A DNA stretch of 64,000 bases, taken from the NCBI GenBank assembly GCA_017557435.1, contig JAFYYR010000013.1, positions 18,736 through 82,735 on the forward strand, written 5' to 3'. The position numbers were made by a program, and so were the translations under genes. Every line of letters begins with the position of its first letter. Position 1 is the stretch's first letter. Positions 6,678 to 47,242 of this stretch are shown piece by piece. This stretch comes from Pseudobutyrivibrio sp. GTDB lineage: Bacteria; Bacillota; Clostridia; Lachnospirales; Lachnospiraceae. The notes under the pieces were generated by a model. It ran no database searches. It had not been told where the DNA came from and saw only the letters and a program-made list of their open reading frames with translations.

Positions 6678-7375
6678 ACAGTTGTAAACACACATCACAA
6701 AGAGAGCAGGCTCCGCCGGCTCTCTTTTTTTATAAATTGAGCCCCTTCACTGATAGCCCCTCCATGCACCTGCCACCGGGCCCTGGGATATACTCTCAAA
6801 GAATCTCTGTTTTCTAAAACGCCAACAACGCTTTTTTATTAGAGTGTGTTCGTTCCAAGTTTTACAATTCTGCCGAAAATGATTACCCATGACGGACATT
6901 ATTTATATTTTAGTTATCTGTTTTTACAATCTAGATTTGCAGTAATTCCGCTTCTTTGGAATGAACCTAGTAAAACAGAAACAGGTTTTGTTTAACATAA
7001 GCACGAGGCGCCACGGACGGCGCCGAGAGCCTGACAGTGAAACGGACTGAACTTGAAGGCGGTGCATATGTTTACAAAACCTGTTTCGTAGTTTTACTTG
7101 GAGAATGTATCAGAAGAGGAATTATGCAAATTCTAGATGTAAAAACAGATATAAGATTCTCAAAAATGTTCGTCATGGGTAAAGCATTTTCTTCGAATAG
7201 TAAAAGCTTGAAAGGACACACTCAAAAGCTTTTGTTGGCATTTTGAAAACAGGGGATTCTCCTCGAATTGTATATCCCAGGGCCCGGTGGCCGGTGCAGG
7301 GGCATCAGTGAAGGGGCCAGAATAGGGATTTGGGAGCCGGCGGAGGCTGCTGTAAATAAATGTGTTTACAACTGT
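6678..7375 (+). repeat. Giant inverted-repeat element 1 (candidate structured RNA)
   Basis: This 698-bp intergenic stretch folds on itself over nearly its whole length. The outermost 15 bp (ACAGTTGTAAACACA at 6678-6692, complement at 7361-7375) pair perfectly. A second perfect 21-bp block pairs 6773-6793 with 7270-7290. Inner arms pair at roughly three quarters of positions. The apex (7001-7065) is a branched motif: outer stem GCAC/GTGC, a hairpin GGCGCC-ACGGAC-GGCGCC at 7007-7024, and an arm with CAGT/ACTG inside GCC/GGC at 7029-7060. The same apex architecture occurs in elements 2 and 3. No credible protein is encoded. It could be a large RNA, a giant 3'-UTR hairpin or a fold-back DNA element. 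Confidence 0.8.
6699..6731 (+). terminator. Intrinsic terminator within the left arm of element 1
   Basis: AAAGAGAGC and GGC pair with GCC and GCTCTCTTT, followed by seven Ts. It ends the TSCPD gene transcript. It competes with long-range pairing of the giant hairpin: the right arm has no matching T run. Confidence 0.8.
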
Positions 7376-7376
7376 C

Positions 7377-7405
7377 TTGTCAGTAGACTTTACATGTGCT
7401 AGAAT
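7377..7405 (+). promoter_or_regulatory. Sigma-A-type promoter of nad operon
   Basis: TTGTCA (7377-7382) and TAGAAT (7400-7405) are separated by exactly 17 bp, with an extended TGC before the -10. It starts 2 bp after the outer foot of giant element 1 and 38 bp before nadA. The operator for NiaR is expected here, but I cannot pick it out with confidence. Confidence 0.75.
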
Positions 7406-7442
7406 GTGTTAAATATTTTATAGATGTAAAGGGAGAAGTCCA

Positions 7443-8351
7443 ATGAACGAACTTGTACAAGAGATAGAGAAGTTAAAGAAAGAGAAGAACGCGGTGGTGC
7501 TGGCACACTACTATGTTAATGATGAGGTGCAGGCTATTGCAGATTATATTGGCGATAGCTATTATCTGGCAAAGGTTGCAGTGGGGCTTCAGGAGAGCAC
7601 TATTGTGTTTGCTGGTGTTAAGTTTATGGGAGAGTCGGCAAAGATTTTAAATCCTGAGAAGACAGTGCTTATGCCTGATCCTAAGGCTGATTGTCCTATG
7701 GCTCATATGGCGGAGATTGAGCGCATCGAGGAAGTTCGCAAGGAGTATGATGATGTGGCTGTTGTTTGCTATATCAATTCTACTGCGGAGCTTAAGATGC
7801 ATTCTGATGTGTGCGTTACATCTGCTAATGCTATGAAGATTGTTAAGGCGTTGCCTAATAAAAACATTTTCTTTATTCCTGATGAGAATCTTGGAAGATA
7901 TATTGCTGAGAAGGTGCCTGAGAAGAACTTCATTTTCAATGATGGATTCTGTCATGTGCATAAGGCAGTTACAGCTGATATGGTTAGCCGTGCTAAGGAG
8001 GCACATCCTGAGGCTGAGGTGCTTATCCATCCAGAGTGTACATTAGATGTTCTTGAGCTTGCTGATTACATTGGCAGTACTTCGGGAATCATCGATTATG
8101 CTACTAAGTCAGATAAAAAAGAGTTCATTATTTCGACAGAGCTTGGTGTACTTTACCAGCTTAAGAAGAACAATCCTGACAAGACATTCTTCTCCGCAGG
8201 TGGAGTTCAGATTTGTCCTAATATGAAAAAGGTAACACTTGAGAAGGTAAGAGATTGTCTTAGAGATAACACAGGTGTTGTGGAAGTTAGTGATGAGAAG
8301 AGAGAGAAGTCACTTAAGCCACTTGCTCGTATGTTAGAGCTTGCTAAATAA
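7443..8351 (+). CDS. nadA: Quinolinate synthase
   Basis: NadA condenses iminoaspartate with dihydroxyacetone phosphate to quinolinate and carries an oxygen-sensitive [4Fe-4S] cluster. The 302-residue protein has the expected cluster cysteines at about C84 (DCPMAH), C170 (DGFCHVH) and C258 (QICPNM), as in the compact NadA form. The N-terminal LAHYYVNDEVQ motif is typical. GGGAGA lies 7 bp before the ATG. It is the first gene of a four-gene nadA-nadB-nadC-niaR operon. Confidence 0.96.
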   Translation: MNELVQEIEKLKKEKNAVVLAHYYVNDEVQAIADYIGDSYYLAKVAVGLQESTIVFAGVKFMGESAKILNPEKTVLMPDPKADCPMAHMAEIERIEEVRKEYDDVAVVCYINSTAELKMHSDVCVTSANAMKIVKALPNKNIFFIPDENLGRYIAEKVPEKNFIFNDGFCHVHKAVTADMVSRAKEAHPEAEVLIHPECTLDVLELADYIGSTSGIIDYATKSDKKEFIISTELGVLYQLKKNNPDKTFFSAGGVQICPNMKKVTLEKVRDCLRDNTGVVEVSDEKREKSLKPLARMLELAK

Positions 8352-8364
8352 AGGTAATAAAGAT

Positions 8365-9672
8365 ATGGATAAAAAATATGATGTAGTAATTGTTGGTAGC
8401 GGTGTGGCAGGACTGTTTTGTGCCCTTAGCTTACCAAGAGATAAAAAAATACTTTGCATTTCAAAGGATGCCCTTGAGGGATGTGATTCATTTTTAGCCC
8501 AGGGTGGTATCTGTATGCTGAGAGATGACGAGGACTATGATGCATACTTTGAGGATACCATGCGAGCAGGTCATTATGAGAATCGCAAGGAATCAGTTGA
8601 AATCATGATTAAGAGTTCCCAGGATGTAATTGGGGATTTGGTAGAGTTTGGAGTAGAGTTTGAGAAGAAGGACGGAGAGTTCGTATTTACGAAGGAAGGT
8701 GCCCATTCTAATAACAGAATTCTCTTCCATGCAGATATCACTGGCAAGGAAATCACTAGCAAGCTTTTAGCTAGAGCTAAGGAGCGTGAGAATATTACTC
8801 TTATGGCCCACACTACTATGGTAGATTGGGTTTGCCAGGATAATGTGTGCTACGGTATCGTAGTTGCAGATATGGACGGTAAGACCACTGCCATTCAGGC
8901 TGATGTGACAGTGTTGGCCTGTGGTGGACTTGGTGGCGTGTATCAGCATTCTACTAATTATAGACATATATCAGGAGATGCATTGGCACTTGCCATGTAT
9001 CATAATGTTAGACTTGAGAACTGTGATTATGTGCAGATTCATCCTACTACACTTTATACTAAGCAGGGCGGACGTAGCTTCTTGATTTCCGAGTCTGTTA
9101 GAGGCGAGGGAGCTGTGCTTAGAGATAAGGACGGCAATAGATTTACAGATGAATTGCAGCCTAGAGATGTGGTTAGTAAGGCCATTTTTGATAAGATGAA
9201 GGAACAGGGCACAGAGCATGTATGGCTTGATTTCTCCCCTATTCCAAAGGAAGAGATACTTAACCATTTTCCTAACATCTATCAGAGATGTAAGGAGGCA
9301 GGCTATGACCCACTTACTGACTATGTGCCGGTAGTCCCAGCTCAGCATTATTTCATGGGCGGCATATACGTAGACAAGGATTCTAAGACTACAATGGAAC
9401 AGCTCTATGCAGTAGGTGAGACCAGCTGCAATGGAGTACATGGTCGAAATAGACTTGCCAGCAATTCACTTTTGGAGAGTCTTGTGTTTGCAAAGAGGGC
9501 AGCACATGATATCGCAAATACGGATTCCTTTAAAAAGCCAGCAGATTTTGATAATCTAGTAAATATGGATGGCTACGAGGATTTGCCATCTATCATGGAA
9601 TACTATCATGCCATGGTAATGGGAGAGATTGAAAAAGAAGAAAAATTAAGAGCCGCAAAGGAGGCAATATAA
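8365..9672 (+). CDS. nadB: L-aspartate oxidase
   Basis: NadB oxidises L-aspartate to iminoaspartate, the substrate of NadA. The FAD-binding GSGVAG motif is at about residues 11-16, followed by SFLAQGGI. The substrate-site region GRNRLASNSLLESLVF is present near residue 370. At 435 residues it lacks about 100 C-terminal residues found in the E. coli enzyme; short forms occur in anaerobic Firmicutes, where fumarate rather than oxygen probably accepts the electrons. The ATG at 8365 is chosen because it directly precedes the Rossmann strand; the upstream extension overlaps nadA. Its stop overlaps the nadC start (TAATG). Confidence 0.94.
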   Translation: MDKKYDVVIVGSGVAGLFCALSLPRDKKILCISKDALEGCDSFLAQGGICMLRDDEDYDAYFEDTMRAGHYENRKESVEIMIKSSQDVIGDLVEFGVEFEKKDGEFVFTKEGAHSNNRILFHADITGKEITSKLLARAKERENITLMAHTTMVDWVCQDNVCYGIVVADMDGKTTAIQADVTVLACGGLGGVYQHSTNYRHISGDALALAMYHNVRLENCDYVQIHPTTLYTKQGGRSFLISESVRGEGAVLRDKDGNRFTDELQPRDVVSKAIFDKMKEQGTEHVWLDFSPIPKEEILNHFPNIYQRCKEAGYDPLTDYVPVVPAQHYFMGGIYVDKDSKTTMEQLYAVGETSCNGVHGRNRLASNSLLESLVFAKRAAHDIANTDSFKKPADFDNLVNMDGYEDLPSIMEYYHAMVMGEIEKEEKLRAAKEAI

Positions 9673-10523
9673 TGAACAACATAACAATGACACTTAACGC
9701 AGACGAGCTTATCAGAATGGCTCTTAAAGAAGATATTTCAAGCGAGGACGTTTCCACTAATTCAGTAATGCCAAGTGATCAGGCAGGAGAGGTAGACCTG
9801 ATCTGCAAGGAAGACGGTATCATCTGTGGAATGGACGTATACGAGAGAGTATTCAAGATTTTAGATGAGAGTACTATAGTTGAAAAATATGTTAATGATG
9901 GCGATGCTGTAAAAAAGGGCGAGCTTATGGCCAAGGTTAAGGGCGATATTAGAGTGCTTCTTTCAGGTGAGAGAGTTGCCCTTAATTATCTCCAGAGAAT
10001 GAGTGGTATTGCTACATACACTAATCAGGTGGCTTCACTTCTCAAGGGAAGCAAGACAGTTCTTCTTGATACAAGAAAAACTACACCTAACATGAGAATT
10101 TTCGAGAAGTATGCTGTAAAGTGCGGCGGAGGTCAGAATCACCGTTACAATCTTTCAGATGGAATTCTTTTAAAGGATAATCACATTGGTGCTGCAGGTT
10201 CAATCACTAAGGCTATTGAGATGGCAAAGGCATACGCACCATTTGTTAGAAAAATTGAGATTGAGACTGAGACACTTGAGCAGGTTAAGGAAGCTGTTGA
10301 AGCTGGCGCAGATATTATCATGCTTGATAATATGGATGTAGAGACAATGAAGAAAGCCGTTGAGATAATTGACGGCAGAGCTAAGACAGAGTGCTCAGGC
10401 AATGTAACAAAAGAAAATATCAAGAACATCATCGACAGTGGAGTTGATTATGTATCAAGCGGTGCGCTTACTCACTCAGCACCTATTCTTGATATTTCAA
10501 TGAAGAACTTACACGCAGTATAG
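9672..10523 (+). CDS. nadC: Nicotinate-nucleotide diphosphorylase (carboxylating)
   Basis: NadC converts quinolinate and PRPP to nicotinate mononucleotide. The 283-residue protein has the family motifs SGERVALNYLQRMSGIAT, LLDTRKTTPNMR and CGGGQNHRYNLSDGILLKDNH in order. It overlaps nadB by one base, indicating translational coupling. niaR starts 8 bp after its stop. Together with NadE at 905-1654, the window encodes most of de novo NAD synthesis; NadD is not seen. Confidence 0.96.
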   Translation: MNNITMTLNADELIRMALKEDISSEDVSTNSVMPSDQAGEVDLICKEDGIICGMDVYERVFKILDESTIVEKYVNDGDAVKKGELMAKVKGDIRVLLSGERVALNYLQRMSGIATYTNQVASLLKGSKTVLLDTRKTTPNMRIFEKYAVKCGGGQNHRYNLSDGILLKDNHIGAAGSITKAIEMAKAYAPFVRKIEIETETLEQVKEAVEAGADIIMLDNMDVETMKKAVEIIDGRAKTECSGNVTKENIKNIIDSGVDYVSSGALTHSAPILDISMKNLHAV

Positions 10524-10531
10524 GAGGCGTC

Positions 10532-11062
10532 ATGGACGGACAAACTCGAAGACAGAGATTAATAGAGCTGGTCAGCGAATCAGATAAGCCAGTATCAGGT
10601 ACTGCTCTTGCTGCCAAGCTTAATGTCAGTCGTCAGGTGGTTGTGACAGATATTGCCTTAATTAGAGCCAATGGTATAGATATTATTTCTACTAATCGAG
10701 GCTATATCGTAAATACGGATAACAAAAAGTTTTCACGTGTGATAAAATGTCGTCATACTGATGATGAGATTTTAGATGAGCTTTTTACAATTGTTGATAA
10801 TGGAGGCTCAGCTGATAATATCATTATTAATCATAGATACTATAATCGTCTTGAGGCACCACTTAATGTGCATTCTAGATTAGATGCCAAGGAATTTATG
10901 GAGGCTATCAAGTCCGGTAAGTCTAAATCCCTTAGCTCTGCCACCAGTGGATATCATTATCACACTATCAGCGCAGACAGCGAAGAAGCCCTTGATATCA
11001 TCGAACAGGAGCTTAAAGAAAAGGGCTACTGGTTGCCGCTTGATGATTGGATTTTAAAATAA
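10532..11062 (+). CDS. niaR: Niacin-responsive repressor NiaR
   Basis: The 176-residue protein has an N-terminal winged helix-turn-helix (about residues 5-60, with AAKLNVSRQVVVTDIALIR) and a C-terminal 3H domain with spaced histidines (CRHTDDE, NHRYY, NVHSR, GYHYHTI). This is the architecture of NiaR (YrxA), a nicotinate-binding repressor of NAD biosynthesis and niacin uptake genes in Firmicutes. As the last gene of the nad operon it probably represses its own transcription. AGGAGG precedes the ATG. Confidence 0.92.
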   Translation: MDGQTRRQRLIELVSESDKPVSGTALAAKLNVSRQVVVTDIALIRANGIDIISTNRGYIVNTDNKKFSRVIKCRHTDDEILDELFTIVDNGGSADNIIINHRYYNRLEAPLNVHSRLDAKEFMEAIKSGKSKSLSSATSGYHYHTISADSEEALDIIEQELKEKGYWLPLDDWILK

Positions 11063-11098
11063 CGTTTAGCCAAGGGGCTAAATTAAGCGAGTAATTAA

Positions 11099-11253
11099 GC
11101 AAGTAATTATCAAGCTCTTAGTGTTGCTGCAGCTTCTTAGCACAAGCATTCGCTTGTGTACACACTAAAAGTCTACCTTACAGTCGACTTTTAGTATGAT
11201 TTTGACGTGTTAGTCGACGAAAGCAACATCTAAGGCTTGAGAATGTAACTTGC
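11099..11253 (+). repeat. Small structured repeat, copy A (candidate RNA motif)
   Basis: The outer stem is GCAAGT/ACTTGC. After an asymmetric internal loop comes CAAGC/GCTTG, a single bulged T at 11116, CTTAG/CTAAG, a single bulged T at 11229 on the other strand, and TGTTGCT/AGCAACA. Inside are two hairpins, CACAAGC/GCTTGTG and ACTAAAAGTC/GACTTTTAGT. Copies B and C share this layout with different base pairs. It ends 2-3 bp before the ung ribosome site. Confidence 0.75.
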
Positions 11254-11268
11254 GTAGGGAGTCGAAAA

Positions 11269-11943
11269 TTGTCAGCGATAAGCAATGATTGGCTGGAGCC
11301 ACTGGCTCCAGAATTTAAAAAGCCATATTACAAGGATTTATATTTAAAGGTAAAAAAGGAATATCATGAGCAGACGGTTTACCCACCTGCTGATGATATT
11401 TTTAATGCATTTGATTTCACACCTCTATCAGAGGTTAAGGTGGTAATAATTGGTCAGGACCCATATCATGAGCCGGGCCAGGCCCATGGACTTTGCTTTT
11501 CAGTAAAGCCAGGGGTGAAGACTCCACCATCACTTGTGAATATCTATAAGGAACTTCACGATGATTTGGGATGCAGCATTCCTAATAATGGATACCTGGA
11601 AAAATGGGCGCGTCAGGGTGTTTTAATGCTTAACAATGTACTGACAGTGCGTGCTCATCAGGCAGCAAGCCATGCAGGTATTGGCTGGGAGCAGTTTACT
11701 GATGCTGCAATTGATGTGCTTAACAAGCAGGATAGACCTATAGTTTTCTTACTTTGGGGCTCACCAGCAGCTAAAAAGTGTGCCAAGCTTAACAACCCAA
11801 ATCACTTGATTTTAAAGGCTCCTCATCCAAGCCCTCTTTCTGCTTATAGAGGCTTCTTTGGATGTAAGCATTTCAGTCAGGCTAATGAGTTTTTAAAGTC
11901 AAAGGGTCTTGAGCCAATCGATTGGCAGATAGATAACATCTAA
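11269..11943 (+). CDS. ung: Uracil-DNA glycosylase, family 1
   Basis: Ung removes uracil from DNA to start base-excision repair. The 224-residue protein has the water-activating motif GQDPYHEPGQAHGL (catalytic aspartate near residue 64), and the DNA-intercalation loop HPSPLSAYRGFFG near residue 187. The start is a TTG at 11269, 8 bp after AGGGAG; there is no in-frame ATG nearby and the N-terminus then aligns with the family. Structured repeat copy A lies just before the ribosome site and might influence translation. Confidence 0.94.
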   Translation: MSAISNDWLEPLAPEFKKPYYKDLYLKVKKEYHEQTVYPPADDIFNAFDFTPLSEVKVVIIGQDPYHEPGQAHGLCFSVKPGVKTPPSLVNIYKELHDDLGCSIPNNGYLEKWARQGVLMLNNVLTVRAHQAASHAGIGWEQFTDAAIDVLNKQDRPIVFLLWGSPAAKKCAKLNNPNHLILKAPHPSPLSAYRGFFGCKHFSQANEFLKSKGLEPIDWQIDNI

Positions 11944-12076
11944 AACACCAGAAATCACAGAAAATTCATGGTTTAATCCGCTGAATTCCTTGTTATTTTA
12001 AGGGGTTTAAATTATAGTTAGTTTAGAGATTTACGCACATTATGATATGTGGAAATAATGATAGAGGCGGGTTAGT

Positions 12077-14521
12077 GTGAAGAAGTTAATCGAGATTAGC
12101 AAACGCTTTTTTGGACAGGATCTCCCCACCGAGTTAGTCCTCTTTAATATTATTACTATTGTAGGATGCGCTGGTGGAGTTATTACTGTACCATTTAATA
12201 TTGTAAATGGCCTTTCAGGCGTTCTTACAACAGTTATTGCGGTGGCTGTTGTAATTGATATTGTATGCATTTATATGGCAAATCGCAGAAATCGACTGAA
12301 GAACAGTATGATTGCAGTTTGTTTCGTAGTGGCCATTGGTTTATTCCCTGTAATGTTCTTTGTTACCGGCGGTATCAACTCTGGTATGGTCTGCTGGTTT
12401 TCAATGGGAATAATTTTCATATTCATGCTTTTGGATGGCATGGATTTTGTCTTTATGTTGTTGACTGACATAGCGATTATCATAGGTTGCTATGTGGTTT
12501 CTTATTATCACCCTGAGTATGTAATAGAGTTAGATTCAAAAAAGAGTGTCTTCTTTGATACTATTCAGTCTCTTTTAGTTAGTTCTCTAGCAATAGGTGC
12601 CATTGTAAAATTCCAAAAGAGTGTATATGTTAAGCTTTACAAGCAGGCATCTATCAATAATGATGACCTGTTAGAAAAGACTTTGCAGGCGAAAAAGGCT
12701 GAGAAAATGGCCCAGACGGCTACAGAGGCAAAGAGTAATTTCCTTGCAAATATGTCTCATGAAATCAGAACCCCTATCAATACTATCATGGGTATGGATG
12801 AAATGATTCTAAGAGAGACATCTGAAAAGGTGGTTGAGGAATATGCTCTAGATATCAAGACAGCATCCCAAAACCTGCTGTCGCTTATCAATGATATTTT
12901 GGATATTACTAAAATTGAATCTGGTAAGATGGGCATTGTTATGGGTGAATACGCATTTATGAGTATGATGCATGACGTGCTTAACAATGTGACCTTAAGA
13001 GCAAAAGAGAAAAATCTGGAAATTCGCCTTAATATTTCTTCTGATATTCCATGTAATATGATTGGCGATGACATTAGAATTAAACAAATTTTAACAAATA
13101 TAATTACAAATGCGGTAAAATATACACAAGATGGTTATATTTCTATTGCAGCCTATTGCGTAAAGGAAGAAACGGGGTTTGCGGACCTAACCTTTGAGAT
13201 TAGCGATACAGGTATCGGAATCAAGCAAGAGGATATCAAGCGAATGTTTGATTCTTTCGAGAGACTTGAGGTCAGCAGAAATAGAAATATTGAAGGTGCT
13301 GGACTTGGAATGACCATTACTCAAAATCTTCTAAAGATGATGGGTAGTACACTTCATGTTCAGAGTATATACGGGGAGGGTTCTACATTCTCATTTACCA
13401 TTAGGCAGGAGATTATGGACCCTGAGCCAATAGGGGATTTTCAGCAGAAACTTAAGCAGATTACAGGCAACTACGAATATAGCACCAGCTTTGAAGCGCC
13501 AAATGCAAAGTTTCTTGTTGTTGATGATAACACAATGAACCGTAAGGTGTTTGTGGCATTGTTGAAGGACTCCAGAGTGCAGATTACTGAGGCCGACAGT
13601 GGAATGGAGTGCCTAAGACTTATTAGGGAAGAGCACTTTGATATGATTTTCCTTGACCACATGATGCCGGGCATGGATGGTATAGAGACTTTCAGAGCTA
13701 TGGCGACACTAGAAGGCAATAAATGTCTCGGCACTCCAGTTATAGCACTTACTGCAAATGCTATTGCAGGAGCCAAGGAAAGATATTTAACAACTGGTTT
13801 CCATGGATTCCTTCCAAAGCCAATTGTTCCAGCGCAGCTTGAGAAGATGATAAGGGATTTTCTTCCAGAACATCTGCTTGAGTACCATGAACAAAATGCC
13901 AAGGATGAGGCTAGAAAGAATCGTGTTAAAAAGATAGAATTACCTGATATCGAAGGAATCGATTGGGATTATGCACTGTTACATTTTCCTGATTCCAACA
14001 TGGTATATCAGACAGCAGTTGATTACTATGACTCTATTGATTATGAACGGGACCAGATATTAAGCTATTATGATGGTATAGAAACGGGAGAGTCTCTTGA
14101 GGATTATAGAATCAAGGTCCATAGCGTAAAGAGTATGTCAAATACTATTGGTGCTGTGGGGCTAGGCGGACTTGCAAAGATGTGTGAGTTTGCAGCAAGA
14201 GATGGGGATATTGAACGAATTAAACTATTAACACCGGTGCTTTTAGAAGAACTTGATAATATGAAGGCAAGAATGGAAGTACTTGCATCAGAGACAGAAA
14301 AGCCGATGCTAGAAGACATAGATGATTTGTTTGCAATGCTTGAGATGCTTAAGATGTCTATTCGTTCTCACGATACAGAATCTGCTGATAACACCATGAA
14401 GCAGATAATGACATTCTCCTATGAGGAGGGGATACAAGAGAAAATCGATTCTCTAAATATCCATATTTTAAATCTGGAGGATGATGAGGCATTAGAAGCT
14501 ATCGATGAACTACAAAAGTAA
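12077..14521 (+). CDS. Hybrid sensor histidine kinase with receiver and Hpt domains
   Basis: The 814-residue protein begins with about six membrane segments (residues 20-180). A HisKA domain follows with phospho-acceptor SHEIRTP near residue 227, then a HATPase region (NIITNAVKYTQDG, DTGIGI, GAGLGM). A receiver domain carries FLDHMMPGMDG near residue 524. A C-terminal Hpt domain has VHSVKSMSNTIGA near residue 681. This is a full phosphorelay in one chain. The GTG start at 12077 follows GAGGCGGG. The next gene, 19 bp on, encodes a double-receiver protein and is the likely partner. The sensed signal is unknown. Confidence 0.92.
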   Translation: MKKLIEISKRFFGQDLPTELVLFNIITIVGCAGGVITVPFNIVNGLSGVLTTVIAVAVVIDIVCIYMANRRNRLKNSMIAVCFVVAIGLFPVMFFVTGGINSGMVCWFSMGIIFIFMLLDGMDFVFMLLTDIAIIIGCYVVSYYHPEYVIELDSKKSVFFDTIQSLLVSSLAIGAIVKFQKSVYVKLYKQASINNDDLLEKTLQAKKAEKMAQTATEAKSNFLANMSHEIRTPINTIMGMDEMILRETSEKVVEEYALDIKTASQNLLSLINDILDITKIESGKMGIVMGEYAFMSMMHDVLNNVTLRAKEKNLEIRLNISSDIPCNMIGDDIRIKQILTNIITNAVKYTQDGYISIAAYCVKEETGFADLTFEISDTGIGIKQEDIKRMFDSFERLEVSRNRNIEGAGLGMTITQNLLKMMGSTLHVQSIYGEGSTFSFTIRQEIMDPEPIGDFQQKLKQITGNYEYSTSFEAPNAKFLVVDDNTMNRKVFVALLKDSRVQITEADSGMECLRLIREEHFDMIFLDHMMPGMDGIETFRAMATLEGNKCLGTPVIALTANAIAGAKERYLTTGFHGFLPKPIVPAQLEKMIRDFLPEHLLEYHEQNAKDEARKNRVKKIELPDIEGIDWDYALLHFPDSNMVYQTAVDYYDSIDYERDQILSYYDGIETGESLEDYRIKVHSVKSMSNTIGAVGLGGLAKMCEFAARDGDIERIKLLTPVLLEELDNMKARMEVLASETEKPMLEDIDDLFAMLEMLKMSIRSHDTESADNTMKQIMTFSYEEGIQEKIDSLNIHILNLEDDEALEAIDELQK

Positions 14522-14540
14522 TTGCTGAAGGAGAGGGCTC

Positions 14541-15305: not shown

Positions 15306-15317
15306 TAACTAGCTTAC

Positions 15318-15362
15318 AAGCGGGGTCACTTAAGTATATCTTAGGTGGTCTCGCTTTATTAT
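15318..15362 (+). terminator. Rho-independent terminator
   Basis: A long stem with some G-U pairs (AAGCGGGGTCACTTAAG with CTTAGGTGGTCTCGCTT) and a 5-nt loop is followed by TTATTATTT. It ends the kinase/receiver operon. Confidence 0.75.
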
Positions 15363-19169: not shown

Positions 19170-19175
19170 AATAAA

Positions 19176-19818
19176 CCTACACCACATGTAGGCCACCACC
19201 ACAAAATAGATAGGCCCCGCACATAGGGCAGCACCTACGCCCCGCCGGGGGTCCCACACTTTGCCTTCAGATTATGATTTTCTAAGTGTGCAGGTGCGCT
19301 TCTTCTATGGTGGGCGTTCTTTCGATTATTTGCAATTCTGACGCTACAGTTCGTGGAAGACAGACACATTTATTTTTAAATATAGCTTCCAAGGCAAGCT
19401 TAGGAATAATTGCGTGATTTTGGAGTGAGCTTAGTGAAATAAAAAAGAGTTTTGCAATGTATTGGCACGAGCCGCCATGGACGGCGGCGAGAGTACGAAA
19501 GCAACACGACGTTGCATAAAGTACGGTGCCAATACATGCAAAACTCATTTTTTTAATTTCACTTAGCGAATGGATTATGAACGCAATTATCCTAAGTCTT
19601 GATTGGAAGCTATTTTATATTACGCTCATGTCTGTCTTCCACGTACAGCAGCTTCGAATAGCAAAATCAGCGAAAGGACACCCACTAGAAGCTCCCTTTG
19701 CACACTAAGAAAATCTATAATCTTCGCAAAATTGTGTGGGACCCCCGGCGGGGCGTAGGTGCTGCCCTATGTGCGGGGCCTAATATAAAAGTTGTGTGGT
19801 GGCTAGAAGCGGTGTAGG
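19176..19818 (+). repeat. Giant inverted-repeat element 2 (candidate structured RNA)
   Basis: The 643-bp element has a GC-rich foot in which 47 bp pair perfectly (19213-19259 with 19734-19780), plus looser pairing outward to 19176/19818. The arms then pair imperfectly up to the apex at 19464-19530. The apex has stem GGCAC/GTGCC, hairpin GCCGCC-ATGGAC-GGCGGC, and a second arm built from GTAC/GTAC and GCAAC-ACGAC-GTTGC. The interior is very like element 3 in opposite orientation, while the feet differ. The outermost foot overlaps the last 16 bp of the minus-strand gene at 19803. Reading frames inside reflect repeat similarity, not genes. Confidence 0.85.
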
Positions 19819-20075
19819 TTTTTGTATTCTAGGAGACCTTCCTCTACCCATTCATGGATGATGGATTTGTCTATGCCAAATTCTTGGCATACTATCATTT
19901 CGTTTACATCATAGTTCTCGCTTATGAAGGCCTTTACTTTTGGAAAGAGTTCTTTTTTTATGCATTCCTTACATTTGCCTTGAGGGGAGCTGATAGGTAT
20001 TCTGCAGCCGCAGCTTTCACAATACCTAACAACTGGACCATTATTATTTAAAAAATCAAGAGCTGAATGTGTCAT
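19803..20075 (-). CDS. Zinc-ribbon protein with helix-turn-helix-like C-terminus
   Basis: The 90-residue protein has two CxxC pairs (CESCGC and CKECIK, about 13 residues apart) that probably bind zinc. The C-terminal half, with VNEMIVCQEFGIDKSIIHEW, resembles a small winged or MerR-like helix-turn-helix. The plan is like the YvyF/TIGR03826 flagellar-operon proteins, but I am not certain of membership. The ATG at 20075 follows GGAGGA by 7 bp; a TTG six bases earlier is a poorer choice. It follows murD by 25 bp on the same strand. Confidence 0.7.
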   Translation of the reverse strand: MTHSALDFLNNNGPVVRYCESCGCRIPISSPQGKCKECIKKELFPKVKAFISENYDVNEMIVCQEFGIDKSIIHEWVEEGLLEYKNLHRF

Positions 20076-34500: not shown

Positions 34501-34694
34501 AGTTACTATTCACAGTTCCTCCCCTACATTCATAATGGAAGTCTTTCAGACTTCTTTCTCAGTGCTAAAGCACTTAACATTATTCATGTAGGAGGAGTCA
34601 CTGATTCCAGTTTATAAATATTTAATGATAATTTTCTTACAAGCAAGCTTGACGAAAATTGAACATTAAATATTTATAACTGTGAATAGTAACT
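34501..34694. repeat. Folded element with 17-bp perfect terminal inverted repeats
   Basis: AGTTACTATTCACAGTT (34501-34517) is exactly complementary to 34678-34694. Two large arms lie inside. The first pairs CTACAT/ATGTAG and ATAATG/CATTAT, with GAAGTC/GACTTC and AGTGC/GCACT hairpins at its tip. The second pairs TATAAATATTTAATG with its complement, then AATTTTC/GAAAATT. No protein is encoded. It may be a MITE or a structured RNA; no target-site duplication is clear. The rest of the 34402-34777 gap holds the veg terminator and the upstream region of the NlpC/P60 gene. Confidence 0.75.
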
Positions 34695-39477: not shown

Positions 39478-39513
39478 CCAAGTAGGTCGGTTACGTTCAC
39501 AAATATAATTATT

Positions 39514-39660: not shown

Positions 39661-39792
39661 ATAGGGATAAAGTTTGTTATCTACTGCCGGATTTATCATT
39701 ACTGAATATAGATACATCAATGACGATGTGGGGAAATCCATCTGCGATTTCTTTGCATCGTATTTAATTTTTTTTGAAAGGAAGTTTAGGTT

Positions 39793-40674
39793 ATGGGATT
39801 TTTAACCTATTTGATTAACGGCTTAAGCTTAGGAAGTGTATACGCGATAATCGCCTTGGGATATACCATGGTTTATGGTATTGCTAAGATGCTTAACTTT
39901 GCCCACGGTGATGTAATCATGATTGGCGCATATTTGGTGTTCATGACAATGACAGGTTCAGGAATGCCAGTTGTGGTCTCAATAGTGATTTCAATCATTT
40001 GCTGTACAGCTCTTGGAATGCTTATAGAAAAGGTGGCATACAAGCCCCTTAGAAAGGCAACAAACCTTGCGGTACTGATTACAGCTATCGGCGTCAGCTA
40101 CTTCTTGCAGAATATGGCGCTGTTGATTTTTGGCTCTAATCCTATTTCGTTTACTTCAGTAATCACTTGGCAGGGCATCACACTTGCAGGTGGACAGCTT
40201 AAAATCAATGGTGTAACAATCATTACTATTATTACATGTTTAATTATCATGGTAGCTTTGATGTGGTTTGTTAAGCACACTAAGCCAGGGCAGGCTATGA
40301 GAGCTGTATCTGAGGATAGAGATGCAGCCACACTTATGGGAATCAATGTAAACGGAACTATTTCCCTTACATTTGCAATTGGTTCAGGACTTGCAGCAAT
40401 CGCTGGTGCATTGCTTTGCAGTTCTTATCCAGTTCTTACACCATACACAGGCTCTATGCCAGGTATCAAGGCATTTACTGCTGCGGTATTTGGAGGAATC
40501 GGTTCTATTCCTGGAGCATTAATTGGTGGACTTTTACTTGGTATTATCGAAAATCTTGCAAAGGCGTACATCTCAAGCCAGCTTGCAGATGCTATCGTAT
40601 TTGCAGTACTTATTATTGTGTTGCTTGTTAAACCTACAGGAATTCTTGGCAAGCAGACAAAAGAGAAAGTGTAG
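39793..40674 (+). CDS. livH: Branched-chain amino-acid ABC permease LivH
   Basis: The 293-residue protein has about eight membrane segments and the LivH signature GLSLGSVYAIIALGYTMVYG near the start. The cytoplasmic loop AVSEDRDAATLMGINVN contacts the ATPase. It forms the transport channel with LivM. GAAAGGAAG lies before the ATG. The stop is followed within 9 bp by livM. Confidence 0.95.
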   Translation: MGFLTYLINGLSLGSVYAIIALGYTMVYGIAKMLNFAHGDVIMIGAYLVFMTMTGSGMPVVVSIVISIICCTALGMLIEKVAYKPLRKATNLAVLITAIGVSYFLQNMALLIFGSNPISFTSVITWQGITLAGGQLKINGVTIITIITCLIIMVALMWFVKHTKPGQAMRAVSEDRDAATLMGINVNGTISLTFAIGSGLAAIAGALLCSSYPVLTPYTGSMPGIKAFTAAVFGGIGSIPGALIGGLLLGIIENLAKAYISSQLADAIVFAVLIIVLLVKPTGILGKQTKEKV

Positions 40675-40683
40675 GTGGCAGCT

Positions 40684-41760
40684 ATGAAAAATCTTAATAA
40701 ATCTACACAGAAATTACTTACAACTATCGGACTAATCGTTGTTTTATATTTAGTGGTTACAATCATGGAGGCAACAGGTAATCTCAGCTCTCTTATGGGT
40801 GGTCTTATGGTACCTGTATGTGCATTCTCTCTTGTTGCAGTAGGACTTAACCTCTGCGTTGGATATCTTGGAGAGTTATCACTTGGACATGCTGGATTCA
40901 TGTGCGTTGGTGCATTTACATCAGCATTTTTCTCAAAGGTATTTATGAATACTATTCCAGATGTACCACGTTTTATATTGGCATTTATCATTGGTACAGC
41001 TATGGCAGCATTGTTTGGATTCCTTATTGCTATTCCAGTTCTTAGACTTAGTGGAGATTACCTTGCAATCGTAACACTTGCCTTCGGCGAGATTATTAAA
41101 AATGTAATCAACACTCTTTACGTAGGAATTGATGGAAATGGAGTTCATGTTTCAATCAAGGATATGCTTTCACTTGGCATGGAGCCAGGAGGACAGGTAA
41201 TTGTAAATGGCGCTCAGGGTATCACAGGTACACCTCGCCAGTCTACATTCCTTATCTCCGTGGTACTCCTTATTATAGTTCTTATTCTTACTTACAATTT
41301 TGTACATTCGAGAACAGGACGTGCAGTGCAGGCTATCCGTGATAATCAGATTGCAGCTGAGACAGTTGGACTTCCAATTACAAAATATAAGCTGATTGCA
41401 TTTACATTATCAGCAGGTATTGCCGGAGTGGGCGGTGTGCTTTTTGCTCACAATATCAGCTCAATTCAGGCTACAACTAATACTTTTGGTTACAACATGT
41501 CTATCATGATTTTGGTTTATGTTGTACTTGGTGGCATCGGTAACTTCAGAGGCTCTATCATTGCAACAGCAGTGCTTTATTTGCTTCCAGAGCTTTTAAG
41601 AGGCATGCAGAATTACCGTATGCTCATCTACTCTATAGTACTTATTGTACTTATGTTATTTAACTGGGCACCAGGTATTTTAAAATGGAGAGAGAAGCAC
41701 GGATTTACAGCCGCAGCTCTTTCACAGAAATTTGGTAAAAAGAAAAAGGAGGTGCAGTAA
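40684..41760 (+). CDS. livM: Branched-chain amino-acid ABC permease LivM
   Basis: The 358-residue protein has about nine membrane segments and the LivM motifs GLNLCVGYLGELSLGHAGF and AIRDNQIAAETVGLPITKYK (coupling helix). The ATG at 40684 is chosen because AGGTGG lies 5 bp before it; the GTG at 40675 overlaps that site. Its stop overlaps the livG start (TAATG). Confidence 0.95.
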   Translation: MKNLNKSTQKLLTTIGLIVVLYLVVTIMEATGNLSSLMGGLMVPVCAFSLVAVGLNLCVGYLGELSLGHAGFMCVGAFTSAFFSKVFMNTIPDVPRFILAFIIGTAMAALFGFLIAIPVLRLSGDYLAIVTLAFGEIIKNVINTLYVGIDGNGVHVSIKDMLSLGMEPGGQVIVNGAQGITGTPRQSTFLISVVLLIIVLILTYNFVHSRTGRAVQAIRDNQIAAETVGLPITKYKLIAFTLSAGIAGVGGVLFAHNISSIQATTNTFGYNMSIMILVYVVLGGIGNFRGSIIATAVLYLLPELLRGMQNYRMLIYSIVLIVLMLFNWAPGILKWREKHGFTAAALSQKFGKKKKEVQ

Positions 41761-42518
41761 TGAGTTTACTTGAAGTATCATCTCTTGGCATTTCCTTTGG
41801 TGGACTTAGAGCAGTTGATGAATTTAATCTTAAAATCGAAAAGGGCGAATTATACGGTCTGATTGGACCAAATGGAGCTGGTAAGACTACAGTTTTCAAT
41901 ATGCTTACTGGAATCTATAAGCCTACAGACGGCAAGATTTTCCTTGATGGCAAGGATATTACAGGCAAGAAGACAGCTGACATTAATAAGGCAGGTATCG
42001 CCAGAACTTTCCAGAATATTAGACTTTTTGGAGATCAGTCAGTTCTTGATAATGTAAAAATTGGACTTCACAATTCCTTTGACTACAGTACAGCTACAGG
42101 AATCTTTAGACTTCCAAAGTACTTTTCGGTAGAAAAGGATATGGACAAGAAGGCTCTTGAGATTTTATCTGTATTTGGACTTGATAAGGAGGCTGATGTA
42201 CTTGCTTCTAATCTTCCTTATGGAAAGCAGCGTCAGCTTGAGATTGCAAGAGCACTTGCAACTAATCCATCACTTCTTCTTTTGGATGAGCCAGCTGCTG
42301 GTATGAATCCAAATGAGACAAAGGATTTGATGGATACAATAGCTCTTATTAGAAAAGAGTTTGGTGTAACAATTCTTTTGATTGAGCATGATATGAAACT
42401 TGTATCTGGTATATGTGAGAAGCTTACAGTGCTTAATTTTGGACGTGTACTTTCACAGGGAGAGACATCAACAGTACTTAATGATCCAGAGGTTATTAAG
42501 GCTTATCTTGGAGAATAA
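41760..42518 (+). CDS. livG: Branched-chain amino-acid ABC ATP-binding protein LivG
   Basis: The 252-residue ATPase has Walker A (GPNGAGKTT), a signature in LPYGKQRQLEIARALA, Walker B (LLLLDEPAAGMN) and the H-loop (LLIEHDMKL). The N-terminal LGISFGGLRAVD is typical of LivG. It powers uptake with LivF. Confidence 0.96.
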   Translation: MSLLEVSSLGISFGGLRAVDEFNLKIEKGELYGLIGPNGAGKTTVFNMLTGIYKPTDGKIFLDGKDITGKKTADINKAGIARTFQNIRLFGDQSVLDNVKIGLHNSFDYSTATGIFRLPKYFSVEKDMDKKALEILSVFGLDKEADVLASNLPYGKQRQLEIARALATNPSLLLLDEPAAGMNPNETKDLMDTIALIRKEFGVTILLIEHDMKLVSGICEKLTVLNFGRVLSQGETSTVLNDPEVIKAYLGE

Positions 42519-42538
42519 TACAAACAGAGGATTTAGAA

Positions 42539-43243
42539 ATGTTAAAGGTTGAGAACTTAGTAGTTAATTATGGAGTTATTCAGGCTCTTAAAGGCATAAG
42601 TTTTGAAGTAAATGAAGGCGAAGTTATTGCCCTTATCGGTGCCAATGGCGCAGGTAAGACAACTACCCTTCAGACTATTTCTGGAATGCTTTCTCCTAAC
42701 TCAGGTAGTGTACTGTTAAATGGCGTTGATATTACTACAATTCCAGGCCATAAAATAGTGTCTATGGGTATGGCTCATGTACCTGAAGGACGTAGAGTTT
42801 TCCCTGGATTAACAGTGCTTGAAAACTTGAAAATGGGAGCTTATACTAGAAGTAACAAGACAGAAATAGCTAATACATTAGAGAGGGTTTACGAGAGTTT
42901 CCCACGACTTAAGGAGAGACAGAATCAGCTAGCTGGTACACTTTCAGGTGGCGAGCAGCAGATGCTTGCAATGGGGCGTGCCCTTATGAGTAATCCTAAA
43001 ATCGTACTTATGGATGAGCCATCAATGGGACTTTCACCTATCTATGTAGATGAGATTTTTAAAATCATTCAGTCTATTTCTGACGCAGGCACCACAGTAC
43101 TTCTTGTAGAGCAGAATGCTAAGAAGGCACTTGCAATAGCAGATAGAGCATACGTACTTGAGACAGGTAATGTGGTTCTTTCTGGTGATGCTAAGGACCT
43201 ACTTAATGATGATTCTATCAAGAAGGCATACTTGGGCGAGTAG
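42539..43243 (+). CDS. livF: Branched-chain amino-acid ABC ATP-binding protein LivF
   Basis: The 234-residue ATPase has Walker A (GANGAGKTT), the LivF-specific MAHVPEGRRVFPGLTVLENL segment, signature LSGGEQQMLAMGRAL and Walker B (VLMDEPSMGL). It is the last gene of the liv operon; no clear terminator follows in the 94-bp gap. Confidence 0.96.
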   Translation: MLKVENLVVNYGVIQALKGISFEVNEGEVIALIGANGAGKTTTLQTISGMLSPNSGSVLLNGVDITTIPGHKIVSMGMAHVPEGRRVFPGLTVLENLKMGAYTRSNKTEIANTLERVYESFPRLKERQNQLAGTLSGGEQQMLAMGRALMSNPKIVLMDEPSMGLSPIYVDEIFKIIQSISDAGTTVLLVEQNAKKALAIADRAYVLETGNVVLSGDAKDLLNDDSIKKAYLGE

Positions 43244-43337
43244 AATATGCAGTTCTATGTGGAGATTTCTTAGGGGCTGTTAGACCGTTGTTACTAGGAC
43301 TTTTCTTATAGGATTGCAAATAATAAGGGGGGCTAGT

Positions 43338-43961
43338 ATGGAGGAGAAGAAGCTAGTTATTTCTATTGCACGTAGTTACGGATCTGGTGGTTTAACCCTT
43401 GCTAAGAAACTGTCGAAGGAATTGGGGATTCCAGTATACGACAGAGAGATTCTACGAATGGCCTCGGACCAGAGTGGAATCAACGAAGAGTTATTTGGTC
43501 AGGTGGATGAGACGGTTAGGAAGATTTTCCTTTCCACTAAGGGCAAGTACAAAGGCATGCCACTGACACCTGAGTACGCAGCATTTACTTCTGATGACAA
43601 TCTATTTGAGCTTCAGGCTGATGTTATCAAGAGGATTGCCAACACACAGAGTTGTATTTTTGTAGGTCGCTGCGCTGATTATATCCTTAGGGATAGACCT
43701 TATGTGCTTTCGCTTTTCTTCTATGCATCTGAAGAGGATTGCTTAGCGAGACTTAGAAAGCAGGTTAGCGGAACTGACGAGGAGCTTATTAAGAGGATGC
43801 ATGCCATCGACAAGCATCGTGCAGATTACTATAAGTACTACACGGGCCGTGATTGGAATGATGCAAGGAACTATGACTTCTGCTTAGACACAGGAGTGAT
43901 GGATTACGATAAGCTAATCGAAGTAGTTAAGGCCTACATAGACATAAAAAATAGAGAATAG
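43338..43961 (+). CDS. Cytidylate-kinase-like protein
   Basis: The 207-residue protein belongs to the cytidylate kinase-like family. The N-terminal ISIARSYGSGGLTLAKKLSKELGIPVYDREI contains the degenerate P-loop (SYGSGG) typical of this group instead of GxxGxGKS. CIFVGRCADYIL is also conserved. The substrate is not established. The ATG at 43338 follows GGGGGG by 6 bp; the TTG-started longer form is unlikely. A terminator follows. Confidence 0.88.
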   Translation: MEEKKLVISIARSYGSGGLTLAKKLSKELGIPVYDREILRMASDQSGINEELFGQVDETVRKIFLSTKGKYKGMPLTPEYAAFTSDDNLFELQADVIKRIANTQSCIFVGRCADYILRDRPYVLSLFFYASEEDCLARLRKQVSGTDEELIKRMHAIDKHRADYYKYYTGRDWNDARNYDFCLDTGVMDYDKLIEVVKAYIDIKNRE

Positions 43962-43983
43962 CTATATTGAACAAGTGATTTTA

Positions 43984-44010
43984 GGAAGCAGCTTACGGCT
44001 GCTTCCTTTA
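43984..44010 (+). terminator. Rho-independent terminator
   Basis: GGAAGCAGC pairs with GCTGCTTCC around TTACG and is followed by TTTATTT. Confidence 0.85.
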
Positions 44011-44137
44011 TTTGTTGGCAGTAATGTAAAATAAGCTGTAATAATGAAATATAAGGCATAAAAGTAGAATTTTATTTGATAATATATATAATGAAATAAG
44101 GTCAGATAGAGAAAGATTTTATTGAAAGGTAATTTAT

Positions 44138-46612
44138 ATGAATCTTAAAGTTTTAAAAACACTTGAATATGACAAGATAGTGGCGAGACTTTCTGAGAAG
44201 GCTACCTGCGAGGCAGGAAGGCTCAGATGTCAGCAGCTTCTTCCTATAAATGATATAGAAGAGATAAAGGTAATGCAGTCGGAGACTGCCAGCGCTTTTA
44301 ATAGACTTATTAAGGTGGGAGATGTAAGTGCCAGTGGAACAACTGATTTGCGTCCATCTCTTGCAAGGCTTGAGCTGGGCTCATCTCTTACAATAGAAGA
44401 GATTCTAGCTGTAGCTAATGTGCTAGAGGTGACAAAGCGTGTATCTGCCTACGGCAAGCAGCTTGAAGGGGAAGATGCCCTTAGCTTCTACTTTAATGGG
44501 CTTTCTCCAGAGGTGGCAATATTAAATGAAATTCGCCGCTGCATTATAGATGAAGAGACAATAGCAGATGATGCCAGCACAGCTCTTTTTGATATAAGAA
44601 AGGGCATGCAGCGCACAAATGACAAGATAAAGAGTGTAATGAACTCTCTGCTTAATAATTCAACTACAAGAGGCTATCTCCAGGAGCCAGTAGTTACAAT
44701 GCGTCAGGGCAGATATTGTCTTCCAGTGCGCTCAGATTATAAATCAAGAGTTCCAGGTATGGTTCATGATCAGTCATCTACAGGTTCTACATTCTTTATT
44801 GAGCCAATGCAGGCTGTTGATTTGAACAATGAGATGCGAGAGCTTCAGGTTAGAGAGCAGGATGAGATAGAAAGAATCCTTGCAACACTTTCAAATAGAA
44901 TTGCAGAGGCTTCAGAGGGAATCATCAGAAACTTCGAGCTTCTTACAGAGATAGATTTCAACCTAGCTAAGGGTCGTTATGCAGTAGAGCTTAATGCCTG
45001 CAGCCCAGAGTTTAATGAAGATGGAATCATTAATTTACGTGGAGCACGCCATCCACTTTTGGACCCAAAGAAAGTAGTGGCAACTGATATTAAATTAGGT
45101 GATGATTACAATCTTCTTTTGGTTACAGGTCCAAATACCGGTGGTAAGACAGTATCCCTTAAGACCTGTGGATTGCTTACACTTATGGCCCAGGCAGGAC
45201 TTCATATTCCAGTTAAGGATAGAAGCCAGGTAGCGGTATTTGATGACGTATATGCAGATATAGGTGACGAGCAGTCAATTGAGCAGTCACTATCCACATT
45301 CTCATCTCATATGGTTAACATTGTCCACATTTTAGAGGCTATAAATGGTGGAAGCTATTCACATGAGACCGAAGAATTAATAGCAAAGAATAAAAAGGAC
45401 CTTAAGCATTCTAAGGTGCTTTACGGTTCAAAGGCTGAGGTAAAGGTTCCTCAGTTCCTTATTCTTATTGATGAGTTATGCGCAGGTACCGACCCTAAGG
45501 AAGGTGCTGCACTTGCACAGTCTATTCTTGATAGACTTCATACACTTGATGTACGTACAATGGCAACCACTCACTACAGTGAGTTAAAGGTCTACGCCCT
45601 GTCAACTGAGGGGGTAGAGAATGCTTCATGTGAGTTTTCTCTTGAAACTTTAAGTCCAACTTACAGACTTATCATCGGTGTGCCAGGAAAATCTAATGCT
45701 TTTGCTATTTCCACAAAACTTGGAATTCCTTGTGAGTTAATTGATGATGCAAAGAGTCGATTGTCTGAAAATGATAAATCATTCGAAGATTTGATGGTAG
45801 ATTTAGAACAGAAACGTCACGAGGTGGAAGAAAATGCAAGAAAAGCTGCATCAGATTTGGCTGCAGCTGAGCAAAAATTGGCAGATGCAACTGCCCGTGA
45901 AGAGAAAATCAAATCACAGAGAGAAGAACTTATTAGACAAGCTCACGAAGATGCGGCGGCAATTTTGCAGGAGGCAAAGGATATAGCTGACGAGACAATT
46001 CGTGACTTCAATAAATTCGGAAAAGGTGCAGGTAATATCTCTGCCATGGAGGCAAAGAGAGCCGCTCTTGGTAAAAACATTAACAAAAATAAGAGCAAGG
46101 CCAAGGAAGAAAAGAAGGTGGAAGAGAATCACAATGTACCTACCAACCTTCATGTTGGCGACAAGGTTAAGGTGCTTTCTATGAACTTAACAGGTCAGGT
46201 CTGCACAGCTCCAAACTCCAAGGGAGACGTAACTGTACAGATGGGCATAATGAAGTCCACCGTCAACATAAAAGATTTAGTTTTAATTGAAGAGGAAGAT
46301 AAATTCGTACCTAAGAAGGGCACTCGAGTTAAGAATATGACCTACGGAGGCTTTAACAAGGCTGCATCAATCTCTCCAGAGATTAACCTCCTTGGTTGTA
46401 CAGTAGATGAAGGTATTGCAAAGCTAGAAAAATACCTAGACGATGCCTACATTAGCCACCTTACCTCTGTTAGAGTAGTACACGGCAAGGGAACTGGAGC
46501 ACTTCGTGCCGGCGTTCATCAGTACCTAAAGAAATGTAAAAACGTGTCCGACTTCCATCTCGGTGAATTCGGCGAAGGCGACGCAGGCGTAACAATCGTA
46601 ACCTTCAAATAA
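44138..46612 (+). CDS. mutS2: MutS2 endonuclease/ribosome-rescue ATPase
   Basis: The 824-residue protein has the MutS2 core and clamp region, Walker A (TGPNTGGKTVSLK), Walker B (FLILIDELCAGTDPKEGAAL) and a C-terminal Smr nuclease domain (VRVVHGKGTGALRAGVHQYLKK). It lacks the MutS mismatch-recognition domain. MutS2 limits recombination or splits collided ribosomes, depending on species. A charged linker with KNINKNKSKAKEEKK lies before the KOW/Smr part. It is monocistronic; element 3 lies 26 bp downstream. Confidence 0.95.
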   Translation: MNLKVLKTLEYDKIVARLSEKATCEAGRLRCQQLLPINDIEEIKVMQSETASAFNRLIKVGDVSASGTTDLRPSLARLELGSSLTIEEILAVANVLEVTKRVSAYGKQLEGEDALSFYFNGLSPEVAILNEIRRCIIDEETIADDASTALFDIRKGMQRTNDKIKSVMNSLLNNSTTRGYLQEPVVTMRQGRYCLPVRSDYKSRVPGMVHDQSSTGSTFFIEPMQAVDLNNEMRELQVREQDEIERILATLSNRIAEASEGIIRNFELLTEIDFNLAKGRYAVELNACSPEFNEDGIINLRGARHPLLDPKKVVATDIKLGDDYNLLLVTGPNTGGKTVSLKTCGLLTLMAQAGLHIPVKDRSQVAVFDDVYADIGDEQSIEQSLSTFSSHMVNIVHILEAINGGSYSHETEELIAKNKKDLKHSKVLYGSKAEVKVPQFLILIDELCAGTDPKEGAALAQSILDRLHTLDVRTMATTHYSELKVYALSTEGVENASCEFSLETLSPTYRLIIGVPGKSNAFAISTKLGIPCELIDDAKSRLSENDKSFEDLMVDLEQKRHEVEENARKAASDLAAAEQKLADATAREEKIKSQREELIRQAHEDAAAILQEAKDIADETIRDFNKFGKGAGNISAMEAKRAALGKNINKNKSKAKEEKKVEENHNVPTNLHVGDKVKVLSMNLTGQVCTAPNSKGDVTVQMGIMKSTVNIKDLVLIEEEDKFVPKKGTRVKNMTYGGFNKAASISPEINLLGCTVDEGIAKLEKYLDDAYISHLTSVRVVHGKGTGALRAGVHQYLKKCKNVSDFHLGEFGEGDAGVTIVTFK

Positions 46613-46638
46613 GACATTAGTTAAATGGAGATATGATA

Positions 46639-47242
46639 GCCCTCCGCTCTATAGAAATTTCTGAGGCAGCCCCCATAATGGTTTTGCCTAGGGCTCCACA
46701 CAATTTTGCGAAGATTATAGATTTTCTTAGTGCGCAAAGGGAGCTTCTAGCGGGTGTCCTTTCGCTGATTTTGCTATTCGAAGCTACTGTATGTGTATGA
46801 CAGACAATCATATATATATACAAAAAGCTTCCAAGCCGTGCCTAGGGTAATTGCGTTCATAATCCGTTCGCTAAGTGGAATTAAAAAAATGAGTTTTGTA
46901 TGTATTGTCACCGTACTTTATGCAACGTCGTGTTGCTTTCGTACTCTCGCCGCCGTCCATGGCGGCTCGTGCCAATAAATTACAAAACTCTTTTTTATTC
47001 CACTAAGCTCACTCCAAAATCACGCAATGTACCCTAGCACAGCTTGGAAGCATTTTAGCTAGTTTAATATTGTCTGTCATACACAAACTGTAGCAACAGA
47101 ATTGCAAATAATCGAAAGAACATCCGCCTATAGAAGAAGCGCACCTGCACACTTAGAAAATCATAATCTGAAGGCAAAGTGTGGAGCCCTAGGCAAAACC
47201 ATTATGGGGGCCGACCCTTCAGTATACATATGAGCGGAGGGC
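46639..47242 (-). repeat. Giant inverted-repeat element 3 (minus strand)
   Basis: The 604-bp element pairs GCCCTCCGCTC (46639-46649) with 47232-47242 and 33 bp perfectly (46669-46701 with 47179-47211). The interior closely matches element 2 in reverse orientation. The apex (46907-46973, minus strand) differs from that of element 2 at only one base. The feet share little sequence with element 2 except near CCACAC, but remain fully self-complementary. Its 5' foot, in its own orientation, starts 10 bp after the stop of the minus-strand gene at 47253. No protein is credible inside. Confidence 0.85.

Follow-up and report, generated by a model that had tools for sequence, protein, structure and literature searches.

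Among the closest described systems to three giant hairpins found in a 64,000-nucleotide stretch (the window) of Pseudobutyrivibrio sp. (Lachnospiraceae; GCA_017557435.1, contig JAFYYR010000013.1, positions 18,736 to 82,735 of the forward strand) are miniature inverted-repeat transposable elements (MITEs) and fold-back elements, which the window family resembles in being short, non-coding and multicopy, in having no transposase gene of its own, in bearing terminal inverted repeats (TIRs) and target duplications in part of the family, and in having ends in common with a transposase-bearing element. Unlike them, it is over nearly its whole length one imperfect palindrome, with copy-specific arms around a conserved RNA-like apex. 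Its arms also share multi-base compensated changes, homogenisation and spacer inversion with hairpins maintained by template switching, but the cited texts on those hairpins deal with RNA genes and with coding genes of yeast rather than with a family of mobile elements (PMC8794818; PMC8604942). The apex corresponds to the TwoAYGGAY RNA, for which the Rfam model comprises 168 positions, without the giant arms, terminal repeats or mobility of the window family; this motif is tabulated as a probable RNA that is not cis-regulatory (Weinberg et al. 2010, PMC2864571), and is typed by Rfam as cis-regulatory. From sequence comparison, the three features probably belong to a giant fold-back (MITE-like) family of mobile elements in Pseudobutyrivibrio that is non-coding and non-autonomous, and the pairing of their arms probably reflects mobile DNA that folds back on itself and not a new giant RNA.

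The window genome is labelled G000, and other genomes and loci carry G and L numbers; 99 related genomes were compared, 29 of them in the genus. The three elements and their parts are as follows.

6711..7345, + strand: giant hairpin element 1, lodged in a terminator hairpin that follows a TSCPD-domain gene and precedes nadA; G013 is without an element here
within 6711..7345, + strand: outer stem of element 1, CTCCGCCGGCTCTC / GGGAGCCGGCGGAG
6701..6710, + strand: left half of the host terminator that element 1 splits, AGAGAGCAGG
7346-7352, + strand: right half of the terminator at element 1, GCTGCTG, diverged
6955..7112, + strand: apex of element 1, TwoAYGGAY (RF01731), 48.4 bits (gathering score 43)
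19184..19801, + strand: giant hairpin element 2, between convergent reading frames, inside a terminator hairpin
19174..19183, + strand: left half of the terminator interrupted by element 2, AACCTACACC
19802-19823, + strand: right half of the terminator at element 2, GCTAGAAGCGGTGTAGGTTTTT
19211..19259, + strand: outer left arm of element 2, specific to this copy, 49 nt with a perfect complement at 19734-19782
19418..19578, + strand: apex of element 2, TwoAYGGAY (RF01731), 64.4 bits
46639..47242, - strand: giant hairpin element 3, between convergent genes (a MutS-domain V/Smr gene ending at 46612 and a cNMP-binding-domain gene ending at 47253)
46859..47019, - strand: apex of element 3, TwoAYGGAY (RF01731), 64.5 bits

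Single-strand folding energies of elements 1, 2 and 3 are -370.6, -379.4 and -324.9 kcal/mol, about twice those of shuffled sequence (means -182.2, -183.9 and -167.9 kcal/mol; z -25.6, -33.3 and -19.3), and none of the 20 shuffles per element folded as well. Complementarity is complete in the 49-nt arm block of element 2 and in a 33-nt block of element 3 (46669-46701/47179-47211), and reaches 94% in a 32-nt block of element 1 (6762-6793/7270-7301). Among the matches listed in the 29 genus genomes, none but itself covers the element 2 arm at 19211..19259. None of the three copies contains a reading frame of at least 100 aa. These folds, together with inspection of the sequence, bear out the three inverted repeats with a shared branched apex that a first-pass annotation of the window had proposed; the compensated changes that it listed (GTGGAAGACAG/CTGTCTTCCAC against GTGTATGACAG/CTGTCATACAC in the arms, GGCGCC/GGCGCC against GCCGCC/GGCGGC in the apex stem) and the right-arm segment TTCGAATAG...GAAAGGACAC are present as described, so that one family with a shared apex and real arm covariation is upheld. 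Its count of three copies holds for the window, and a fourth lies elsewhere in G000 (four matches in the genome). Its boundaries stand for element 3, and the ends of elements 1 and 2 have been redrawn because the sequences just outside them (6701-6710/7346-7352 and 19174-19183/19802-19823) are remnants of host terminators.

Comparison with relatives shows that the three window copies are insertions, absent at the same sites in other genomes. In the closest relative, G013, the flanks are 87-93% identical and none of the three is present at the corresponding sites. Site 1 in G013 reads AGAGAGCAGG-AAGA-GCCTGCTCTCTTTTTT, a plain terminator hairpin within which element 1 sits; site 2 reads AACCTACACC-GCTAAAAA-CGGTGTAGGTTTTT, the same halves that flank element 2 in the window; and site 3 is a 131-bp spacer with a different hairpin. 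Of 20 genus genomes compared besides G013, 19 are likewise free of a giant element at site 2. The fourth G000 copy is also found in G013, where 61 arm columns are paired and equal, 8 have changed in concert and 19 are paired in one species only. Insertion into terminator loops as a rule, suggested by elements 1 and 2, found no support in 29 TIR-bounded copies tested. Other nested hairpins, of roughly 90-100 nt, stand in terminator position at L109, L111 and L135 (G002, G014 and G013).

Such placement raises the question of whether the elements are host-domesticated transcription terminators or mRNA 3' end protectors of mobile-element descent, as all three lie at most 35 nt from a stop codon, two stand between convergent reading frames, two are inside former terminators, and 8 of 100 copies are flanked by gene starts on both sides. 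Conservation of the sites is lacking, however: at site 2, a giant element occurs in one of 21 other genomes compared (G011, in opposite orientation), and in 17 of the 21 the spacer measures 5-116 bp and often holds a terminator-like hairpin. Nor do neighbouring genes face the elements uniformly, the left neighbour turning its 3' end to the element in 50 copies and the 5' end in 46, the right neighbour in 63 and 28; hence there is no strict placing, and selection against gene damage would leave a similar pattern. Domestication is thus quite improbable as an account of the family.

Mobility is suggested by the ends of copies in relatives. A TIR was defined as a GTTACTATTCACAG-like repeat with at most 3 mismatches, and the 104 full-length copies examined consisted of 80 distinct copies not fetched via the TIR and 24 that were. 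Seven of the former 80 have the TIR at both ends; shuffling the letters of the motif 200 times gave 0.02 such copies on average and never more than 2, and the reversed motif gave none. Exact 8-bp target duplications flank 5 of the 31 TIR-bearing copies, four in G021 (e.g. TCTTACTC, AATAAATT and AAAAATCC) and one in G017, where about 0.0005 would be expected by chance according to our own arithmetic. Three further TIR-bearing copies have an 8-bp duplication with one mismatch, and two of these look like one shared insertion. A 2,963-bp element in G028 (L277) has the family TIR at both ends, is flanked by the 8-bp duplication CGCATAAA, and encodes a 581-aa IS66 transposase (NF033517 at 183.2 bits, where the cut-off is 180; Pfam DDE_Tnp_IS66). 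Because its ends are those of some family members, an IS66-type transposon may supply the transposase in trans. The first-pass annotation had correctly found no transposase nearby (none was recognised among the neighbouring genes checked, nine window proteins compared with Pfam); the combination of flanking duplications and a transposase, which it had named as the mark of a plain insertion element, does occur in relatives, where some family members have TIRs and 8-bp duplications and where an element carrying a transposase shares these ends.

A scan of 30 IS66 loci found the TIR at both ends of L277 alone. An L277-like end on one side was found in G034 (one of two loci), G009 and G050, where it lies about 100 bp behind a transposase fragment; the second G034 locus and G095 have just a looser TIR variant, and the matches to the L277 protein in G042 and G037 have no TIR-like end. 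Two other transposase types were rejected. An IS4-type transposase (L291) was ruled out as partner, having ends of its own, CAATGTCATT. Insertion sequences (IS) of this type in G003 are located within a short palindrome with the 9-bp duplication ATTCACAGT (L357), between GTTACTATTCACAGT and a near-inverted copy of it (L291), and within the apex of giant elements at three further loci (L349-L351), two of which align at 96% over 2,115 nt, both element halves included; the third has the IS and one element half. The presence of one such interrupted copy at two loci favours mobility. With three giant apices and two short palindromes as sites, the IS4-type elements with CAATGTCATT ends may prefer hairpins. 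IS110 was ruled out as the autonomous form, as it interrupts the second AYGGAY hairpin of one copy, a giant element of G006 (L236 808-3152) split by an IS110-type element with a DEDD transposase.

All three apices exceed the gathering score of RF01731 over the full length of the model, so the comparison with Rfam places in a described class the part of a family that the first-pass annotation did not recognise. Across the 64 kb of the window, RF01731 is the only Rfam family to reach its gathering score, the GOLLD, ROOL, OLE and HEARO models being unmatched, and the giant arms are not covered by Rfam. The first apex loop is ATGGAC or ACGGAC in all three elements; the second is ACGGAC in element 1, whereas elements 2 and 3 have ACGAC there, one base short of AYGGAY; each loop lacks one base in two copies from G036. 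The literature text covered, with most subscription journals outside the search, makes no mention of mobility of TwoAYGGAY, which for that reason is not claimed to be unpublished.

RF01731 matches occur in 33 of the 99 related genomes, with 1 to 25 per carrier, and in 27 of the 29 within the genus; G010, one of the two genus genomes that lack them, has weaker DNA matches to the apex. The right-arm pattern TTCGAATAG N9-10 GAAAGGACAC was found in 21 stretches of named genomes, all 21 from Pseudobutyrivibrio. When complementary arms beyond the Rfam model were measured in 64 copies, 32 of the 40 from the genus had at least 190 nt (contig ends truncate three of the remaining eight), and the 24 from four other genera just 26-97 nt; the giant form was therefore seen in Pseudobutyrivibrio only. 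The core of element 2 has no match in plasmid and phage collections (E 1e-5). Outside the genus, G032 has 11 copies with AACTTCC-like ends in common that are mutually alignable over about 245-259 nt, and G050 has five copies with arms of 28-32 nt, 81-100% complementary and different in each copy. From this architecture, the TwoAYGGAY motif seems to go with palindromic elements, perhaps mobile ones, in at least two genera. A broader proposal, which we hold only tentatively, is that TwoAYGGAY is a transposon-borne RNA module at the tip of otherwise different palindromic elements in several genera, the RNA tip taking part in the life of the element (e.g. by capturing an RNA-binding protein of the host, CsrA for instance, or by aiding transposition) while template switching rewrites the arms.

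Concerted change of the arms is most evident in G021, where eight copies have cores 86-95% identical and arms 53-89% identical. Left and right arms agree in 258 of 320 cells, compared with 178.6 when arms are shuffled among copies, and none of 5000 shuffles did as well; three smaller sets agree, with equally good shuffles numbering 134/5000 for five copies, 222/5000 for four copies, where the floor is about 208, and 11/5000 for six copies. In places the arms have changed by whole blocks of several bases, and spacers have been exchanged: AACAAAGG stands in both arms of L251 but in only one arm of L252, whose other arm reads ACCCCTG, and unpaired spacers are swapped between sides in L252 and L300 and, judged by eye, probably in L304 and L250. 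Homogenised arms and inverted spacers have been described as marks of template switching between inverted repeats (PMC8604942; PMC8794818), and we infer that the concerted change reflects DNA-level copying between arms. De novo origin of arms at each insertion, suggested by the copy-specific arms, was ruled out for the TIR-bearing G021 copies, the arms of which are recognisably related.

Alternatively, the whole 600-700 nt could be transcribed as a giant structured non-coding RNA with a selected fold, of which TwoAYGGAY would be merely the tip. The very stable folds, the concerted arm changes and conserved unpaired core segments such as TTCGAATAG...GAAAGGACAC are what such an RNA would have, as is the strand bias of the left outer arm, where, read in element orientation, 95 of 102 copies have more C than G in the 50 nt that flank the core on the left, on either genomic strand. 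However, RNA selection on the named strand would favour G-T, so the lack of a G-T excess speaks against RNA selection on the arms: G-T and A-C mismatches number 327:390 in inner and 177:241 in outer arms of the 102 copies, and 304:327 as distinct pair-genome combinations outside the Rfam model. Eight orthologue pairs of G012 and G019 provide 2,020 base pairs (just 94 of them countable in L166/L180), of which 1,868 are unchanged, 12 compensated, 58 broken, 17 changed to G-U, 19 changed from G-U and 46 gapped, pairs thus being broken more often than compensated. The short arms of the copies from other genera also argue against a giant RNA, and around element 2 there is one promoter-like site, where shuffles give 1.6. 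A giant RNA is accordingly judged unlikely, and the claim of the first-pass annotation that covariation implies selection on a folded RNA or cruciform goes too far: in the light of similar G-T and A-C counts, an excess of broken over compensated pairs and changes in blocks, arm covariation alone does not imply RNA selection.

The apex, as distinct from the arms, may act as RNA. In a first count, G-T against A-C came to 13:4, 120:46 and 35:0, but to 2:3 and 14:47 in the second hairpin; the difference diminished in a second alignment, to 83:78 distinct pair-genome combinations, and in counts per copy, to 3:0 in the two hairpins and 22:14 in the main stem. Binding of CsrA by TwoAYGGAY has been proposed by Gardner and co-workers (PMC4333381), and titration of CsrA by the AYGGAY loops, with the mobile element as the vehicle, would be compatible with a fold-back mobile element; we regard it as possible though doubtful. 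A csrA gene is present in 32 of the 33 carriers, G000 included (the exception is 81% complete), compared with 74 of the 99 genomes overall, a weak association; what counts against it is that outside the genus there are only six carriers, all with csrA where 46 of 70 genomes have the gene, which would happen by chance with an estimated probability of about 0.07. The second loops that fall one base short in elements 2 and 3, the shortened loops of the two G036 copies, and the apices broken in some copies by IS110 or IS4 elements speak against titration. One giant-element match (G021:C1:229517-230349) lies directly behind csrA, possibly by chance because G021 has up to 25 copies.

As the sequences show, the typical copy consists, from the outside in, of an outer stem or TIR (GTTACTATTCACAG-like where kept), a short unpaired spacer that is often AT-rich, a copy-specific arm (C-rich on the left, G-rich on the right), a conserved core of about 480 nt, the TwoAYGGAY apex, and then back. 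An IS66-type transposase would move, or would have moved, the elements in trans; the arms would be kept complementary mainly by DNA-level copying, through template switching or recombination in the hairpin, which would homogenise them, could swap spacers, and would let outer arms drift yet stay palindromic. The elements do persist between genes, and seldom between two gene starts.

Several observations weigh against this explanation. The TIR is not kept at both ends in 73 of the 80 copies not chosen for it, and the 31 TIR-bearing copies among 104 represent no frequency because the set was enriched by TIR searches (24 copies); four of the five exact duplications belong to the enriched part and to one genome, G021. 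At the three window copies there is neither a canonical TIR nor a clean target duplication, and they, like most others, have different outer stems in its place. Matches to the L277-type transposase occur in 7 of the 99 genomes and in 3 of the 33 carriers (G009, G028 and G050, those of G009 and G050 being fragments), and G000 has no homologue; the window copies may therefore be stranded by now, or a different enzyme may be their partner. Hairpins are not targeted in excess, with at least 6 pairs across the site in 18 of 29 TIR-bounded insertions and in 111 of 174 control windows. Single changes outnumber paired changes in the G012/G019 orthologues, so arm correction cannot be fast. Near-identical cores are found within different arms, which gene conversion of the core would explain better than transposition.

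If the family is mobile, the orphan RNA family TwoAYGGAY gains a genomic setting, at the tip of fold-back elements, and a warning follows: in palindromic mobile elements, events at the DNA level can produce strong covariation of the arms that mimics RNA selection. With matched and mismatched arm states among the copies of one genome, G021 offers a direct test of arm-to-arm conversion.

The TIR sequence also bounds other elements. The window contains one of them:

34502..34693, no strand assigned: separate 192-bp hairpin element with GTTACTATTCACAG on both sides, as in some giant copies, and no TwoAYGGAY match

Pairs of GTTACTATTCACAG-like ends about 190 bp apart recur at two further G000 sites and in other genomes of the genus, and a 1,264-bp stretch of G005 with the same ends (L237 908-2171) carries a DUF6290 / ParE-type toxin-antitoxin pair.

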